A stretch of 64,000 nucleotides of DNA, taken from positions 1 to 64,000 of the forward strand of contig CAIULL010000121.1 of assembly GCA_903899985.1 (NCBI GenBank). The letters run 5' to 3'. This stretch comes from an uncultured Schlesneria sp. Its GTDB lineage: Bacteria > Planctomycetota > Planctomycetia > Planctomycetales > Planctomycetaceae. The translations under genes were made by a program, and so were the position numbers. The notes beneath the pieces are model-generated. The model did no database searches and was not told the DNA's origin. It saw nothing but the letters and a program-made list of their open reading frames with translations. Below, piece after piece: positions 1-6,973 of this stretch (position 1 is the stretch's first letter; every line of letters starts with the position of its first letter).

Positions 1-392
1 GGGCAAGCGTTTGCAATCGTCTCGGTTCGTCTCTGGTCGTCTCCAATCTTCTGCAGCAGCACCTTTCGGTATCTGATTTTAGAAAAACTGGCAATACTGA
101 AGCTCGCCACCCAACTGTCTCGATGCCTGCAATCGGAGATGTCATGCAGAATCCTCGTTCGGCGAACCGAAATCTACATTCTTTCCTCAAGCGGTTTTTG
201 CGTAACGTGTGCAAGAAAGAATGTGTGTTAGGTCAGTGAGTTCAAGTGTATACAGAGAAACTCAAAATCGGCGGTAGGACCCGTTGACGCCACGGGGTTG
301 AAGAGATTCCCTATTAAATCTTCGCGACGTTCGCTTGTATCGCGTTCTGAGCCTCTCGCGTGACTCATTGGACATCAAACAACCCGATAGCG
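1..392. other. Left-edge stretch with no recognisable gene
   Basis: I see no convincing coding region in these bases. A minus-strand frame stays open from about 232 to the window edge, but its translation from the possible ATG at 145 is low-complexity and matches nothing I know. The first 50 bases hold a loose run of CGTCT-type pentamers that I could not relate to any feature. The stretch lies downstream of the minus-strand gene ending at 393, so a continuation of the integrated element (integrase, other attachment end) may begin just outside the window. Confidence 0.4.
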
Positions 393-662
393 TTACGCGT
401 GCGTTAGTTTCATTATCTCGAATTCGCCACAGAAGCTATCACCTTGAACAATTGGCAGCATCCAGTTGCGGTGATCCCTGTTGCCATCGTCGAGTACATT
501 CATAAACCGATGGTGTTGAATAGGTGGTTTTAAATGGCATTCGTAAAGTTCGACTGGCTTCCGATCAACTCCAACGTCATTGTGAGCGAACACTGCAAAC
601 CGGCAGATGTCACATCGGTCAGGCGTTGCATTCATTCCGCTGCCCCTTTGGTTGCTGTTCAT
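393..662 (-). CDS. Small Cys/His-containing protein of the integrated element
   Basis: An 89-residue product of unknown function. Its start codon overlaps the stop of the PrimPol-helicase gene by four bases (ATGA type), which argues for translational coupling and for this being a real gene. The N-terminal third has a CDIC motif (residues 18-21), then a single Cys in YECHLKPP and another in the C-terminal DSFCGEF segment. Together these suggest a four-Cys treble-clef or zinc-ribbon-like fold. Small Cys4 proteins of this kind sit near replication genes in many phage-like elements. No homologue is recognised by eye, so no function is assigned. Confidence 0.6.
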   Translation of the reverse strand: MNSNQRGSGMNATPDRCDICRFAVFAHNDVGVDRKPVELYECHLKPPIQHHRFMNVLDDGNRDHRNWMLPIVQGDSFCGEFEIMKLTHA

Positions 663-3157
663 GCTTTCGATCCTCCAAACATAGAATCCACTGAGTCAAA
701 GTTAACTGCGGTTTCACTAGCAACTCCTGCCACATCCACACTACCAGCACAGTGCGACACTGCGACAACCCCTTTAGGGTGGTTGTCGCAGTGTGTGGCC
801 TCCACTGTGACAGACTGATTCTGTCGCAGTGCTGTCACAGTGTTGTCACAGTCTGTCGCAGTGGTTGTGGTTACTGCTGTTACTAATCGAAATCCAGGAT
901 AGGTCTGCTTGTTCTTCTTAGTTATTTCGCAGGCTTCAACCTTACCGTCTTCCAATAGCTTTTCGTTCGCCGCTCCACAGTCCGTACCATTCAATCTGGC
1001 TTTGGTCCCGTAGAATCGTTCCGTCTCGCCTTCTGGATACTTCTGATAAGCTTTCAGCAACTTGGCGGTATCAGCTTCGAGCTTCTTAGCCGCCTTGGCT
1101 TGTGCCCGTTGTTCCTTTGCGGCTTCACCCTGTTGTATGTTCTCGGCAACGACAGCCGATGCCCCATCAACCGAAACTTCCCACCGTCGCCCGCCTTGAT
1201 CCTTTCTTGATCCCTCTTCGATGTTCACGCCACACAAAACCGAATGACCAGCAGAGCCACCGACCGACAACCACAGGCGATGTGAGCCAGCGTTTTCGGG
1301 GTTGTACGCTTCACGCCTACCCAACAAAATCCACTGGCGTGCCCACTCTTGGAAACCAGACCACGCGATAGACTCCAGCTCTGGCGGGTTGAATTGGTTT
1401 TCTTTTGGTGCTTTCCGATTGTGGTGAACGATGATGATTGTGCATCCGGTTTCGCGTCCTACCTCGGTCAGTTCGAACAGCTTCTTACCGACTGAAAACA
1501 GGTTGCCCGCATCATCGCCCAGGTCGAGACATAAATAGGCGGGGTCAACAATCAGGACTTCAAGCCGATTGTCTTTGACGAATTTCGACAAACTGGCTTT
1601 CGTCCGTGGTTGTCCAAGTCTCGGCAATGCAAACGACCAAAGAGCGTTTGAATAGTCGCCAAAGTTAATCCAGGGCTTTGACCGTGCAATCCTTCGGCAA
1701 GTCTCTTGAATAACTGCATCACCACTTTCGCCCGACATCATCGCCACGCGAACGGGTCGGGGAACATAGTACTTGTTCAGAAACTTCGCACCACTGGCGA
1801 GACTCAAAGTCAGGTCGATTGCAATCGTGGTTTTCAGACTCTTCTTTGATGCTGCGATAATGCAAGGCTGACCAGCCGCGAGGATATCATCAACCAGATA
1901 TTCCGTGTGGAGTTCTACTGCGTCGAGTTGTTCCGATGTCATCGTCTCGAATGTCTCGACTTCAGAGCCGAGAACAATCGTATTGACGTTCGAAGAAACA
2001 AAACTCAACACGTCGTTAAGGTCCCGTCCCTCGCTCAGTCTTTTCAACCCCTGCTGCAAAACCTGTCTCAAGACTTGTTCTTGTCTCGGATCGGTTTGAG
2101 CCGGTTTAACCGCTTCCGCTGAAAAGGTGGAAGAGTCTTCCACTGTTTGAACCGTTCCCAAAATCGCTTCGCCTGTCGCCTGCTCCGAATCATCAAGCGG
2201 GTCGAACCTCGGAACGTCACCTGCTGGCAACTGTTCACGGTCAGCCATCGGGACTACCTCCGATTTCATCGCCCCGTCGATCTTGTGCCACAATTCAGCA
2301 TCTGACCAGGGCGGGACGCATTTTAAATTCCAAGGTTGCAGAACGTCGAAGGTGTCTTCACGGTTCAACCTGAATCCCAAAACCTTCTTCACGACAATGA
2401 ACGTGTCCCGGCTTCCGTCCTGACCGGAAACCGCTCCTGGTATTGGTGCCAAGTATGTTGAAGCCCGTTTGATTTGACGTTCACGGTCAGGGGTCAACGG
2501 TTGCTGTGGCTGTGCTTGAACCTTGACCGGCTTCACAACCTCGGGAACCCATTTCGCGAGCGTGGTCATCAGTGCGGTTAATGGTCCCTGTCGTTCCCGT
2601 ACATCGTCTGGCGTGCCGTGTACCCTTTGTCCTGTCACCGTAAAGAAACGGCCCTTCGAATAGACTTCAACCTTTCCGTCTCCCTCAGGACGTTTGAAGC
2701 CGCTTCGACAACCTTCAGGTAGTACGCCACGAACGAAGATCTTGACGCCCGTCCCACTTGGCGAGACTTCGGTGTATGTCTTCAAAATGTCGATGAAGTC
2801 TAAAGCCCATCCCGCCAGCTTTCCCGTTGCCGGGTCTCGGCAATCGTCCAGGTCGATACCAATTAGATCATCACTTCCATCGAATACGAAACCGATTCCA
2901 AGTCCGTTCTGTTCTGCTGACGCGACGGCCGTAGAAAAATCGGTCCAGGTGTTCGCATCGGTCGAAGAGGCATTTCGTAAAGGATGGTTCGCCTGCTTTA
3001 GTGGCTTCGTCCACTTCCCCGCCTTCTTTTCCCAAGCCCAACAAACCCAACGATCTGGCGTCGTCAGTGTCTCGGGTATTCCTTCGACGTTGAAATTGTG
3101 AACAGGTTTCACGTCGGACGATAGAACCTCTTGTCGTGCTGTTTTGGTTTCCGTCAT
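659..3157 (-). CDS. PrimPol-helicase fusion replication protein of the integrated element
   Basis: Residues 30-200 resemble the archaeo-eukaryotic primase/polymerase fold of phage NrS-1-type and bifunctional primase proteins: a metal-binding DLDDC at 102-106, SPSGTGVKIF at 132-141 and EVYSKGRFFTVTG at 164-176. Residues 226-297 look like the helical primase C-terminal linker. Residues 410-620 are a RepA-like hexameric helicase (AAA_25 type), with a variant Walker A ASKKSLKT at 436-443, Walker B-like LIVDPAY near 535-541 and a sensor-like IIIVHHN at 574-580. A basic winged-helix-like segment follows. The last ~80 residues are Thr/Val/Asp-rich and appear shaped by DNA repeats (750-863). The gene overlaps its neighbours on both sides by four bases. 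It probably primes and unwinds the element's own DNA. Domain assignment is by motif, not by search. Confidence 0.85.
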   Translation of the reverse strand: MTETKTARQEVLSSDVKPVHNFNVEGIPETLTTPDRWVCWAWEKKAGKWTKPLKQANHPLRNASSTDANTWTDFSTAVASAEQNGLGIGFVFDGSDDLIGIDLDDCRDPATGKLAGWALDFIDILKTYTEVSPSGTGVKIFVRGVLPEGCRSGFKRPEGDGKVEVYSKGRFFTVTGQRVHGTPDDVRERQGPLTALMTTLAKWVPEVVKPVKVQAQPQQPLTPDRERQIKRASTYLAPIPGAVSGQDGSRDTFIVVKKVLGFRLNREDTFDVLQPWNLKCVPPWSDAELWHKIDGAMKSEVVPMADREQLPAGDVPRFDPLDDSEQATGEAILGTVQTVEDSSTFSAEAVKPAQTDPRQEQVLRQVLQQGLKRLSEGRDLNDVLSFVSSNVNTIVLGSEVETFETMTSEQLDAVELHTEYLVDDILAAGQPCIIAASKKSLKTTIAIDLTLSLASGAKFLNKYYVPRPVRVAMMSGESGDAVIQETCRRIARSKPWINFGDYSNALWSFALPRLGQPRTKASLSKFVKDNRLEVLIVDPAYLCLDLGDDAGNLFSVGKKLFELTEVGRETGCTIIIVHHNRKAPKENQFNPPELESIAWSGFQEWARQWILLGRREAYNPENAGSHRLWLSVGGSAGHSVLCGVNIEEGSRKDQGGRRWEVSVDGASAVVAENIQQGEAAKEQRAQAKAAKKLEADTAKLLKAYQKYPEGETERFYGTKARLNGTDCGAANEKLLEDGKVEACEITKKNKQTYPGFRLVTAVTTTTATDCDNTVTALRQNQSVTVEATHCDNHPKGVVAVSHCAGSVDVAGVASETAVNFDSVDSMFGGSKA
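750..863. repeat. Iteron-like array in the 3' end of the replication gene
   Basis: The decamer TGTCRCAGTG occurs at 784-793, 822-831, 833-842, 844-853 (last base C) and 854-863. The last four are direct and spaced 11, 11 and 10 bases, close to one helical turn. The inverted form CACTGYGACA lies at 758-767 and 803-812, with a diverged copy at 750-759. Phased short repeats inside or beside a rep gene are characteristic of iteron replication origins, so this is a candidate origin recognised by the PrimPol-helicase. The encoded tail, rich in Thr, Val and Cys-Asp, looks like a by-product of the repeats. Confidence 0.65.
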
Positions 3158-3696
3158 ACATTCACCGCCGTTCTAAATTCTGGAATCTCGTGAAGGAACG
3201 GCGGGCAGACTTCGGAAACCTTGTCATCCGGGGCGGTGCAACATGCCCATTGAAGGAGATGATCGAACCACGATTCAATCAACTGGCGAACGGCTTCAAT
3301 TGACGGTCGTTTGTCTCGCTCGATCAGCTTTTCAATCCCGCTTCGGGTTGTCGCTACTGACTGCATCTGCCCACGACAGAAACGGGAAAGACATTGTTCT
3401 TCTTCGGTGAATGTGGTTTGCGTTGCCTTTCGGCCCGCTCGCTTACGTGCTGCGCTCATCGCATTGTTGCCAGCTCGCCAGCGAAGTTTTTGGGCGGCGT
3501 CTTCGCGCTTGCGGAGTCCCTTCAGAAATTCCGTGAGCGTCTTCGATCCGCCAGCCAGCTTGATAGCCGCATGGGCTTCGACCAAAAAACCTTTTCGATA
3601 ATTTGCCTCGCGGTCAGGATCGTTTCCCCAATAAGGGATGGTTGTATCGTAGTCGGTTAATGCTTTGGGGTTGACTTTGTCTACTACATTTGTCAT
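3154..3696 (-). CDS. Unknown protein of the integrated element
   Basis: A 180-residue product that I do not recognise. It overlaps the start of the PrimPol-helicase by four bases and so is very likely co-transcribed and co-translated with it. The middle (about residues 60-110) is strongly basic, with KLRWRAGNN and RKRAGRKAT segments that could bind DNA. The C-terminal third is predicted helical and contains a CC pair and CPPF. It shows no signal peptide or membrane segment. A replication accessory or regulatory role is possible from context only. Confidence 0.6.
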   Translation of the reverse strand: MTNVVDKVNPKALTDYDTTIPYWGNDPDREANYRKGFLVEAHAAIKLAGGSKTLTEFLKGLRKREDAAQKLRWRAGNNAMSAARKRAGRKATQTTFTEEEQCLSRFCRGQMQSVATTRSGIEKLIERDKRPSIEAVRQLIESWFDHLLQWACCTAPDDKVSEVCPPFLHEIPEFRTAVNV

Positions 3697-3789: not shown

Positions 3790-4650
3790 CTACGCCTTCT
3801 GTTTCCAGGTAGACGCAACCTCTCTGGTCAGCTTCTTCATCGGATCAATCGCACTCGGATTGCTGCGTGCAAATTGGACGGAAGTTGTCGAGTCAGCCCC
3901 GTAGGGAAGAATCGCGATTCCGCTAATCGCCCATTGCCTGAAAACGGTTCCCGGTCCATCGAAGTCAATGCCGTTGACGTTGACTGCTTGCCCCTCTGGC
4001 ACCTGCTGAGTCTGAAGCGTGGATGGGTCAATTGTGACAGAGGCTTGGAATGGTACGCCCTTTGAGCCTTGGAAGATGATCTCACTGGCCTTGTCGTCAG
4101 TCGTGAACGGAATTAGTCGTCCCTGAGCCACTAATTGGCCATCGACGACAGATACCGAATCCGCAACCCCTAAAACACAGTCAGTGTGGTTGTAATCAAG
4201 GGGGATCGCGCCCGATGGTGGTATAAACCCGCTCATGTCGTTGACGACTCGGCCCCAATAACCTTGATAGGCTGTAGAGCTTGTTCGGGCAACAATCGTG
4301 ATCGGCTTTGGAGACAGTGAGCCGGTTTCGGGTGGCGATTGGGTCATCGAAACATCAGCGCCAAAATTGACCGAATTTTTCGGCAGTCTGATCGTTCCTT
4401 TTGCCTGTGCGTCTTGCATCGCTGCAAACAGCCGACCTGCAAACTTCTGGATCAGTGGTCCATCTTTGACGGCAATGTCGCCACCCGCAAAACAAGCCTT
4501 CCCAGGCTGGGGAATCAGTTTACTTAACAACTCAAAATTTGACTTGACGTCATGCGGTAGCGCGGGTGGCGAGTTGGCCAATGCGAACTGTGCGTTGCTC
4601 ATGAGGGTTGAGACTTCAGGACCAGAAAACACTTTTTGATCTTGTTGCAT
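3790..4650 (-). CDS. HK97-like phage prohead protease homologue
   Basis: A 286-residue protein whose middle (about 115-230) resembles the U35/S78-type prohead maturation proteases. It has LDYNHTD with His155, a VxDGQLVAQGRL strand pair, then GVPFQASVTID with Ser204. The 49-residue His-to-Ser spacing and the small-residue context around the serine fit the family, whose members cleave scaffold and capsid proteins inside the prohead. The ~100-residue N-terminal extension and the C-terminal tail are not recognised. No portal, major capsid or terminase gene lies nearby. The encoded protein may process a capsid made by genes outside the window, by a helper phage, or may have another role. The start codon has an A-rich leader rather than a clear Shine-Dalgarno. 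Confidence 0.65.
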   Translation of the reverse strand: MQQDQKVFSGPEVSTLMSNAQFALANSPPALPHDVKSNFELLSKLIPQPGKACFAGGDIAVKDGPLIQKFAGRLFAAMQDAQAKGTIRLPKNSVNFGADVSMTQSPPETGSLSPKPITIVARTSSTAYQGYWGRVVNDMSGFIPPSGAIPLDYNHTDCVLGVADSVSVVDGQLVAQGRLIPFTTDDKASEIIFQGSKGVPFQASVTIDPSTLQTQQVPEGQAVNVNGIDFDGPGTVFRQWAISGIAILPYGADSTTSVQFARSNPSAIDPMKKLTREVASTWKQKA

Positions 4651-6260: not shown

Positions 6261-6482
6261 TCAGGCAGCGGTTCCGCTGCCATCTTGAGCCGCCAGATAT
6301 TCTTCAATGGCCCAAACAGGAACCAGACGCGATTTTCCGATCTTCAACGATTTTAATTGCCCCGATGAAATCAATCCGTAAACGAACGTCCGGCCAAGCC
6401 CCAGGTAGTGACACGCCCCGTCAACCTTCAAATTTTGCTTTTTGCGTAGCTCCGGAATGTCCAAACTCTTCTTCGCTTCCAT
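6261..6482 (-). CDS. Excisionase-family helix-turn-helix protein
   Basis: A 73-residue MerR-like/excisionase-type DNA-binding protein. The core shows the family pattern: a helix with DGACHYLGLGRTFVYGLI, then the wing SGQLKSLKIGKSRLVP and the terminal helix VWAIEEYLA. Proteins of this family bind attachment sites and direct excision by tyrosine integrases, or act as regulators. The gene is preceded by AGGGG eight bases before ATG and lies closest to the tRNA gene, the usual place for xis near an attachment site. It is separated from the rest of the cluster by a strong terminator, so it may be expressed independently. The integrase partner is not in the window. Confidence 0.8.
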   Translation of the reverse strand: MEAKKSLDIPELRKKQNLKVDGACHYLGLGRTFVYGLISSGQLKSLKIGKSRLVPVWAIEEYLAAQDGSGTAA

Positions 6483-6665: not shown

Positions 6666-6739
6666 GAGAAAATAACGGCTTGTTGGTATAAGGTTGGTAT
6701 TTGACGCGAATTCAGTTTTGAAAAATCGCCATAAGTCAT

Positions 6740-6825
6740 TAGCCGAGGCGGGGCTCGAACCCGCACGTCCTGTTACGGACACAGGATTTTAAGTCCTGTG
6801 CGTCTGCCTGTTTCGCCACTCGGCC
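6740..6825 (-). tRNA. tRNA-Leu (anticodon UAA)
   Basis: The minus strand folds as a class II tRNA. The acceptor is GGCCGAG pairing with CUCGGCU (first pair G-U) with discriminator A, and the D-arm contains GGCAGACGC. The anticodon stem-loop is CAGGA-CUUAAAA-UCCUG with anticodon UAA; a variable arm and a T-arm GCGGG-UUCGAGC-CCCGC follow. The long variable arm and the anticodon identify leucine. CCA is not encoded. The 3' end points at the integrated element, a common arrangement when the tRNA end serves as attachment site. Confidence 0.95.
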
Positions 6826-6973
6826 ATTTCGAGCCACGGATTGTGGCGTGGTTGGCTTCTCACTGCAAGACTGCGAGTTGTCGGGAATCTCGGATTCCGC
6901 GGAAGTTGGTGTGGAAATTGACCGGGAGATGCCAAAAAGTTGAAGGCGTGACCCATGAATCACAGGGAAAGAT

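Follow-up and report, generated by a model that had tools for sequence, protein, structure and literature searches.

What are ten-base DNA repeats doing inside the 3' end of a gene for a primase-helicase, where they are read through as protein? The question comes from an earlier note on a 64,000-nucleotide stretch of planctomycete DNA (hereafter the window), which suggested that the repeats form a replication origin within the gene of their own initiator. This is the best-supported reading: the array is probably an iteron origin that lies within the last part of the gene for its initiator, carried by a phage-like, integrated element. The argument is drawn from sequence comparison and builds on a family-wide position, a shared layout, an association between the winged-helix (wHTH) domain and the repeats, and DNA-level constraint in a related pair of genes. 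Lambda O, SaPI Rep and pRN1 already provide examples of an origin that lies in the initiator gene or shortly past its end.

A decamer array at the end of the gene

A motif scan of the window located exact copies of TGTCRCAGTG at 784, 822, 833 and 854 on the plus strand and at 758 and 803 on the minus strand, with one-mismatch copies at 844 (plus) and 750 (minus), which makes an array of six exact and two one-mismatch decamers within 114 bp (750-863). Exact copies are expected 0.22 times by chance in 64 kb, and at most two turned up in 100 shuffles; against this expectation the array is real. The 8.0-Mb genome holds 40 exact matches overall, 6 of them inside 106 bp of the array. Five decamers had been described, four of them direct at spacings of 10-11; five copies do lie on the plus strand and the spacing holds, but not all copies are exact, the one at 844 agreeing in 9 of 10 positions. 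The two inverted copies are indeed exact on the minus strand and are joined by one further 9/10 copy (750).

854-863, plus strand: decamer TGTCGCAGTG, exact, the first direct copy on the coding strand
844-853, plus strand: decamer TGTCACAGTC, one mismatch
833-842, plus strand: decamer TGTCACAGTG, exact
822-831, plus strand: decamer TGTCGCAGTG, exact
803-812, minus strand: inverted decamer TGTCACAGTG, exact
757-794, no strand: palindrome, with decamers 758-767 and 784-793 in perfect 14-bp arms around a CCC-TTTA-GGG type centre
750-759, minus strand: outer inverted decamer TGTCGCACTG, one mismatch

Read along the coding strand, four direct decamers are followed by an inverted one, by the palindrome, whose facing copies flank the CCCTAAAGGGG centre, and by a degenerate copy. 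The direct run (822, 833, 844 and 854, plus strand) has spacings of 11, 11 and 10 bp, and thereby shows the arrangement by which iteron origins are recognised, at least three direct repeats about one helical turn apart, which recurs across the family. The palindrome, absent from the earlier note, is a perfect 14-bp inverted repeat (757-770 and 781-794) with a 10-nt centre. The decamers fall in all three reading frames of the coding strand, which argues for a tail moulded by the DNA sequence and against a repeat at the protein level, and bears out the earlier view of the protein tail as shaped by the repeats. An AT-rich region beside the repeats is a feature of many iteron origins; here no clear AT-rich flank was seen, the GC content of 100-bp steps across positions 1-1000 being 44-56%, and the sole T/A-type stretch at the array is the palindrome centre. 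A single GC-skew profile gave nothing firm.

As single-stranded DNA, the 114 nt of the array fold at -35 kcal/mol (z -6.5). A strong stem at a gene end could belong to a transcription terminator or an mRNA structure, a reading we hold to be highly improbable: a scan of 300-1300 finds no terminator at the array, there is no Rfam family match there, and a T-run of at least four beside the stem occurs in 1 of 50 targets, compared with 44 of 352 controls. Such a stem would also leave the direct copies outside it unexplained, and the arrays sit inside genes.

Domains of the initiator

The array lies within the gene of a predicted winged-helix initiator (659-3157), a location expected of an iteron origin.

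659-3157, minus strand: primase-helicase initiator gene, 832 aa
2522-3091, minus strand: primase domain of the archaeo-eukaryotic, Prim-Pol type, roughly residues 23-212 (PHROG 13901, E 4e-38; PDB primases 7rr4 and 6a9w, E about 1e-20)
1409-1936, minus strand: RecA-like helicase core (AAA_25), residues 408-583 (Pfam, E 7.7e-17)
878-1090, minus strand: predicted winged helix, the proposed iteron reader (model pLDDT 92.6; profile E 5.6e-26, the profile including the window sequence)
662-880, minus strand: C-terminal tail past the winged helix, carrying the array (pLDDT below 50 in the last 64 residues)

The protein thus runs from primase through AAA_25 helicase and predicted winged helix to a predicted disordered tail, in a structure model with a mean pLDDT of 86.7, and the decamers sit in the tail-coding part of the gene, past the winged-helix domain. 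The primase part matches NrS-1-type primases. For the helicase, the best VIA structural match is RSF1010 RepA (1g8y; Z 23.0, rmsd 3.0, 229 aligned), with a profile match to the RSF1010 RepA family at E 5e-4. Candidates for a named relative of the winged helix were rejected, the matches being generic: Foldseek reached E 4e-3 at best, and the VIA matches tied at a Z near 10.

The earlier note had placed the array in the last part of a PrimPol-helicase gene. The location is right, but the stress on the PrimPol is not: what precedes the array is the helicase with its winged helix, and the priming module at the N-terminus is variable. In relatives, AAA_25 is preceded by a Prim-Pol in L043, by a Zn-ribbon and Toprim in L133, by a Zn-ribbon in L134, and by a DnaB N-terminal domain in L012, L074, L132 and L135.

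Repeat arrays at the gene ends of relatives

Of 392 genomes chosen from the whole phylum, 77 encode a similar protein, as do, with the helicase-to-tail part as query, 63 of 170 genomes of the family; a winged-helix profile matched in 18 of the 392 at E 1e-5. A scan of 84,980 species genomes yielded 46 loci, planctomycete-labelled except for one Acidobacteria MAG (L096, on a cut contig), and viral contigs yielded 5. The 56 homologue copies included 6 duplicates, leaving 50 distinct; many loci represent the same genome under two names (e.g. L012/L060), and recognised pairs were removed.

At the 3' ends of these relatives, a repeat cluster and a T/A-centred palindrome recur near the gene end, the repeat word differing in most elements. 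For 45 of the 50 distinct copies (5 were dropped for a contig end or N), an interval of constant length, 500 bp with the stop codon in the middle, was compared with 40 dinucleotide shuffles. Repeated 8-mers exceeded all 40 shuffles in 36 of 45 homologues, the best inverted repeat did so in 24 of 45, and either measure in 38 of 45, with 7 of 45 exceeding the shuffles on neither. Stop intervals also stood apart from 765 other intervals of the same loci (Mann-Whitney p 6e-34 for 8-mers and 5e-20 for inverted repeats, the intervals not being fully independent). Among palindromes, which were chosen by complementarity, a central TWWA occurs in 18 of 50 targets versus 8 of 352 control hairpins. A second set, composed of 13 new loci found with the winged-helix profile and 7 read earlier, had an array or palindrome above shuffles in 16 of 20 loci (9 of 13 among the new ones) and neither in the remaining 4 of 20.

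The decamer itself is not what has been kept: exact CACTGYGACA occurs in 0 of 45 other homologues and was rejected as a family signature. Position, layout and a loosely related word (e.g. CACTCGGACA, ACTCCGACA) are kept across relatives. The looser CACTSSGACA averages 0.82 copies per interval versus 0.11 in controls, with at least two copies in 9 of 45, and carries no weight as proof, having been picked post hoc after seeing the data.

GenBank phage records gave 251 matches with L040 as query and 180 with the window, none covering more than 80% of the query and, among the matches listed, all within the helicase part; hence, at the sensitivity of this search, no characterised phage combining helicase and winged helix turned up. 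Plasmids gave 107 partial matches to a query from L012, none above 80%. The literature searched, at the level of titles and the opening lines of abstracts, yielded no paper on these planctomycete elements and no RepA-like helicase-wHTH origin.

Two peculiar gene ends were seen along the way. In L162 and L164, from one genome (G339), near-identical stems of 28-30 bp stand at the ends of two different gene copies; they look unrelated, and are possibly a dispersed repeat of that host. The tail of L045 carries in-frame DPVLSN repeats built from 18-bp tandem DNA units.

DNA and protein in the tail

Of the 40 loci, 31 have clear repeats (score 4 or more): 8 of these have every site within the gene, 12 have sites before and after the stop codon, and 11 have every site downstream. 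The layout of at least two direct copies followed by inverted, direct and inverted copies is found in 17 of 33 loci versus 8.5 after strand shuffling (p 0.0006; 33 of 40 loci, seven weak ones having been left out by hand). A like layout recurs in all three placement groups, an argument for the importance of the DNA over that of the protein tail it encodes, which would not matter.

The most direct comparison comes from L133 and L134, a related gene pair from two genomes of the window's own genus with alignable tails. Of the 196 aligned codons of the core, before the tail, 81 differ synonymously and 52 with a change of amino acid, versus 2 and 25 of the 56 codons of the tail (2 and 23 in a slightly different alignment, Fisher p 1e-6). 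DNA identity is 0.70 in the tail versus 0.66 before it, and the repeats are nearly unchanged in the alignment. L011/L064 point in the same direction (tail DNA 0.72 versus 0.65, tail protein 0.47 versus 0.64), and L056/L082 show no shift between tail and core. Only 2 of the 16 pairs examined have a tail that clearly surpasses the core in DNA similarity and falls behind it in protein similarity; in most other pairs the repeats have been replaced outright, and the tail has diverged in DNA as well as in protein. Repeat DNA kept where amino acids change is accordingly seen in L133/L134, with L011/L064 behaving the same way, but the prediction that the decamer itself is kept elsewhere fails. The counterexample that the earlier note had named, a conserved protein tail without DNA repeats, was not seen; the tails are unconserved as protein, and arrays also lie wholly outside the gene.

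These observations bear on whether the DNA repeats merely reflect a repetitive, functional protein tail, or chance. The in-frame DPVLSN tail of L045 is the kind of case such a reading would predict, but copies lie in three frames and on both strands, the tail is predicted disordered and is unconserved, arrays stand outside the gene in 11 of 31 loci, and synonymous changes are suppressed in the L133/L134 tail; we assign it a negligible probability.

The repeat word follows the winged helix

Across 39 of 40 loci, the repeat word tracks the winged helix once helicase identity is controlled for (partial Mantel r 0.30, p 0.0005 under a label permutation that ignores the tree), and shows no such relation to the helicase once winged-helix identity is controlled for (partial r 0.02, p 0.37). 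The result holds at three score cut-offs. The association supports, and does not prove, the winged helix as the putative reader of the repeats. The window's closest winged helix is that of L015 (49%), whose repeat shares TGCGACA, and L052 and L053, with helicases far closer to the window (75%), have different repeats; by repeat alone, L071, L067, L074 and L043 score as close as or closer than L015.

A second integrated element of the same genome, L040, offers an internal comparison. It is 90% identical in DNA over 1,682 bp to about codon 349, and past this codon the similarity is lost at once in the helicase, the winged helix and the repeats. L040 thus shares the primase-side DNA and differs in the repeats, which indicates that the repeats do not go with the primase. 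The common block (window 3157-2112, minus strand; L040 5530-6576) runs from the gene before the initiator, and the recombination point lies between primase and helicase.

The array could alternatively be an operator, at which the initiator or another regulator represses or times downstream genes or limits copy number, and would then not be a start site. Immediately downstream of it comes a small gene, with a start codon that overlaps the initiator stop, and the iterons of known replicons often also serve control. Against an operator, the array follows a helicase-wHTH gene and not a promoter, and no sigma-70-like promoter was found at 300-1300. The repeat word follows the initiator's own wHTH, which fits self-binding and alone does not separate operator from origin. 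We consider the operator reading unlikely; an operator or copy-control role may coexist with an origin.

Returning to the origin reading, a tentative generalisation is that planctomycete phage-like elements might share a transferable cassette, in which a helicase of the RSF1010-RepA type is joined to a winged helix and followed, at the gene end, by an iteron-palindrome origin that matches it. Such a cassette could accept varied N-terminal priming modules (Prim-Pol, Zn-ribbon/Toprim or DnaB-N) and switch specificity by co-swapping winged helix and repeats. It would amount to a one-gene RSF1010-like replicon, the palindrome loading two facing helicases and maybe priming both strands. If the origin reading is true, dozens of natural initiator-origin pairs would exist in which recognition domain and DNA word have changed together, and the recognition code of a winged-helix initiator could be read and tested directly. 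They would also show plainly how an origin can overwrite a coding sequence, since relatives have the same origin outside the gene, and offer compact one-gene replicons as planctomycete genetic tools.

A proposed mechanism

For binding, opening, priming, origin activity and coupling, we infer the following sequence of events. The C-terminal winged helix of the initiator would bind the decamers. The direct run and the facing palindrome copies would seat RSF1010-RepA-type helicase subunits on both sides of the T/A centre, two helicases facing each other around it, and the duplex would open at this small centre. The fused N-terminal primase would then lay primers and start synthesis. NrS-1 primase needs only short template motifs, according to excerpts of PMC8718748, and priming sites therefore cannot be named from sequence. 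Translation would run on across the origin and yield a disordered tail, probably so as to stay coupled to that of the next small gene.

393-662, minus strand: small CxxC protein gene, 89 aa, whose ATG overlaps the initiator stop (ATGA, 659-662)

The same ATGA overlap of initiator stop and small-gene start occurs in L040, L133, L134 and L135, which makes translational coupling a likely reason for the read-through. A start at the stop codon is found for 16 of 20 arrays inside the gene versus 6 of 13 downstream (p 0.065, not significant; 53 genes, 10 of them weak), a comparison that is only suggestive. The small CxxC (zinc-ribbon-like) gene itself often begins at the initiator stop, as in the window, L040, L012, L053 and L134.

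Comparison with known replication systems

Archaeo-eukaryotic primase (AEP)-helicase families: Known families were compared as far as the excerpts of PMC5862659 describe them. The pRN1 protein ORF904 combines an archaeo-eukaryotic primase, a helicase and a C-terminal winged helix, with a stem-loop origin just 3' of its gene; the helicase is of SF3 type, there are no iterons and the stem-loop is not in the gene, as described in parts of PMC4234260. The predicted domains here resemble ORF904 in AEP primase, helicase, C-terminal winged helix and palindrome, the palindrome lying inside the gene end, and differ in that the helicase is not SF3.

SaPI Rep and SCCmec Cch2: These initiator helicases bind, through a C-terminal domain, short repeats directly after their own gene, according to parts of PMC7581432. 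Among the relatives the repeats lie downstream in 11 of 31 and across the stop in 12 of 31, and in the window inside the gene, with a C-terminal domain, the winged helix, as their proposed reader. Here, by contrast, an RSF1010-RepA-like (AAA_25) helicase is fused to a primase, and the array includes a palindrome and in many cases extends into the coding sequence. The helicase class of SaPI Rep and Cch2 is SF3 (D5-like); the helicase here is AAA_25 by Pfam and nearest RSF1010 RepA by structure, not SF3.

Lambda O: The lambda origin has its iterons inside the O gene, where extra iterons add residues to O, and the array is mid-gene beside an AT-rich region, by the sections available of PMC7466680. 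An array inside the initiator gene is the point of likeness, its function as an origin being inferred here, whereas the array here lies at the 3' end, may fall outside the gene and has no clear AT-rich flank. To our knowledge, lambda O is neither a helicase nor a primase. No homology to O protein was detected, Pfam finding only AAA_25.

RSF1010: The RepA-RepB'-RepC/oriV system has iterons and a hairpin and supplies primase, helicase and iteron-binding functions, according to parts of PMC4234260. RepA is the nearest solved helicase, and the fold of this family of hexameric helicases is predicted here. Three separate proteins in RSF1010 correspond to one here, where the units are near 10 bp and the primase part is NrS-1-type. 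A separate RepC-like gene was not found among the window proteins scanned, in an element cut by the contig end; the winged helix is here fused to the helicase.

Further precedents: Phage P1 RepL/oriL and plasmid RA3 oriV (3' end of repB) are described as lying within an initiator gene or at its end, and as far as the abstracts show their initiators are unrelated to this one. The N15 repA origin was considered as a precedent and set aside; the literature search found no paper on it.

The integrated element

The window begins at the first base of its contig, and the element is therefore cut on the left. Upstream of the initiator gene the following features were found.

3154-3696, minus strand: 180-aa gene before the initiator, in the 90%-identical block common to the second element
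3790-4650, minus strand: weak match to a phage head maturation protease (PHROG 3244, E 2e-8)
6261-6482, minus strand: HTH_17 small DNA-binding gene, excisionase-like (Pfam, E 1.5e-10; PHROG 66, E 0.0035)
6739-6826, minus strand: tRNA-Leu, the likely edge of the integrated element (putative att site)

A phage-like gene in the element invites the reading of the array as a packaging (pac/cos-like), recombination or other cis site, since such sites can hold repeats. Yet the array accompanies the helicase-wHTH gene whichever N-terminal part is joined to it, its repeat word follows that gene's own wHTH, and the window has no adjoining match to a packaging gene, only the protease 3 kb away. A site of this kind is very unlikely, and an iteron origin remains the preferred reading.

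The protease-like gene (3790-4650, minus strand) stands between the excisionase-like gene and the primase, an order unusual for a prophage or satellite. Downstream of the small CxxC gene, an 18-nt overlapping palindrome (window 237-264) is possibly an operator.
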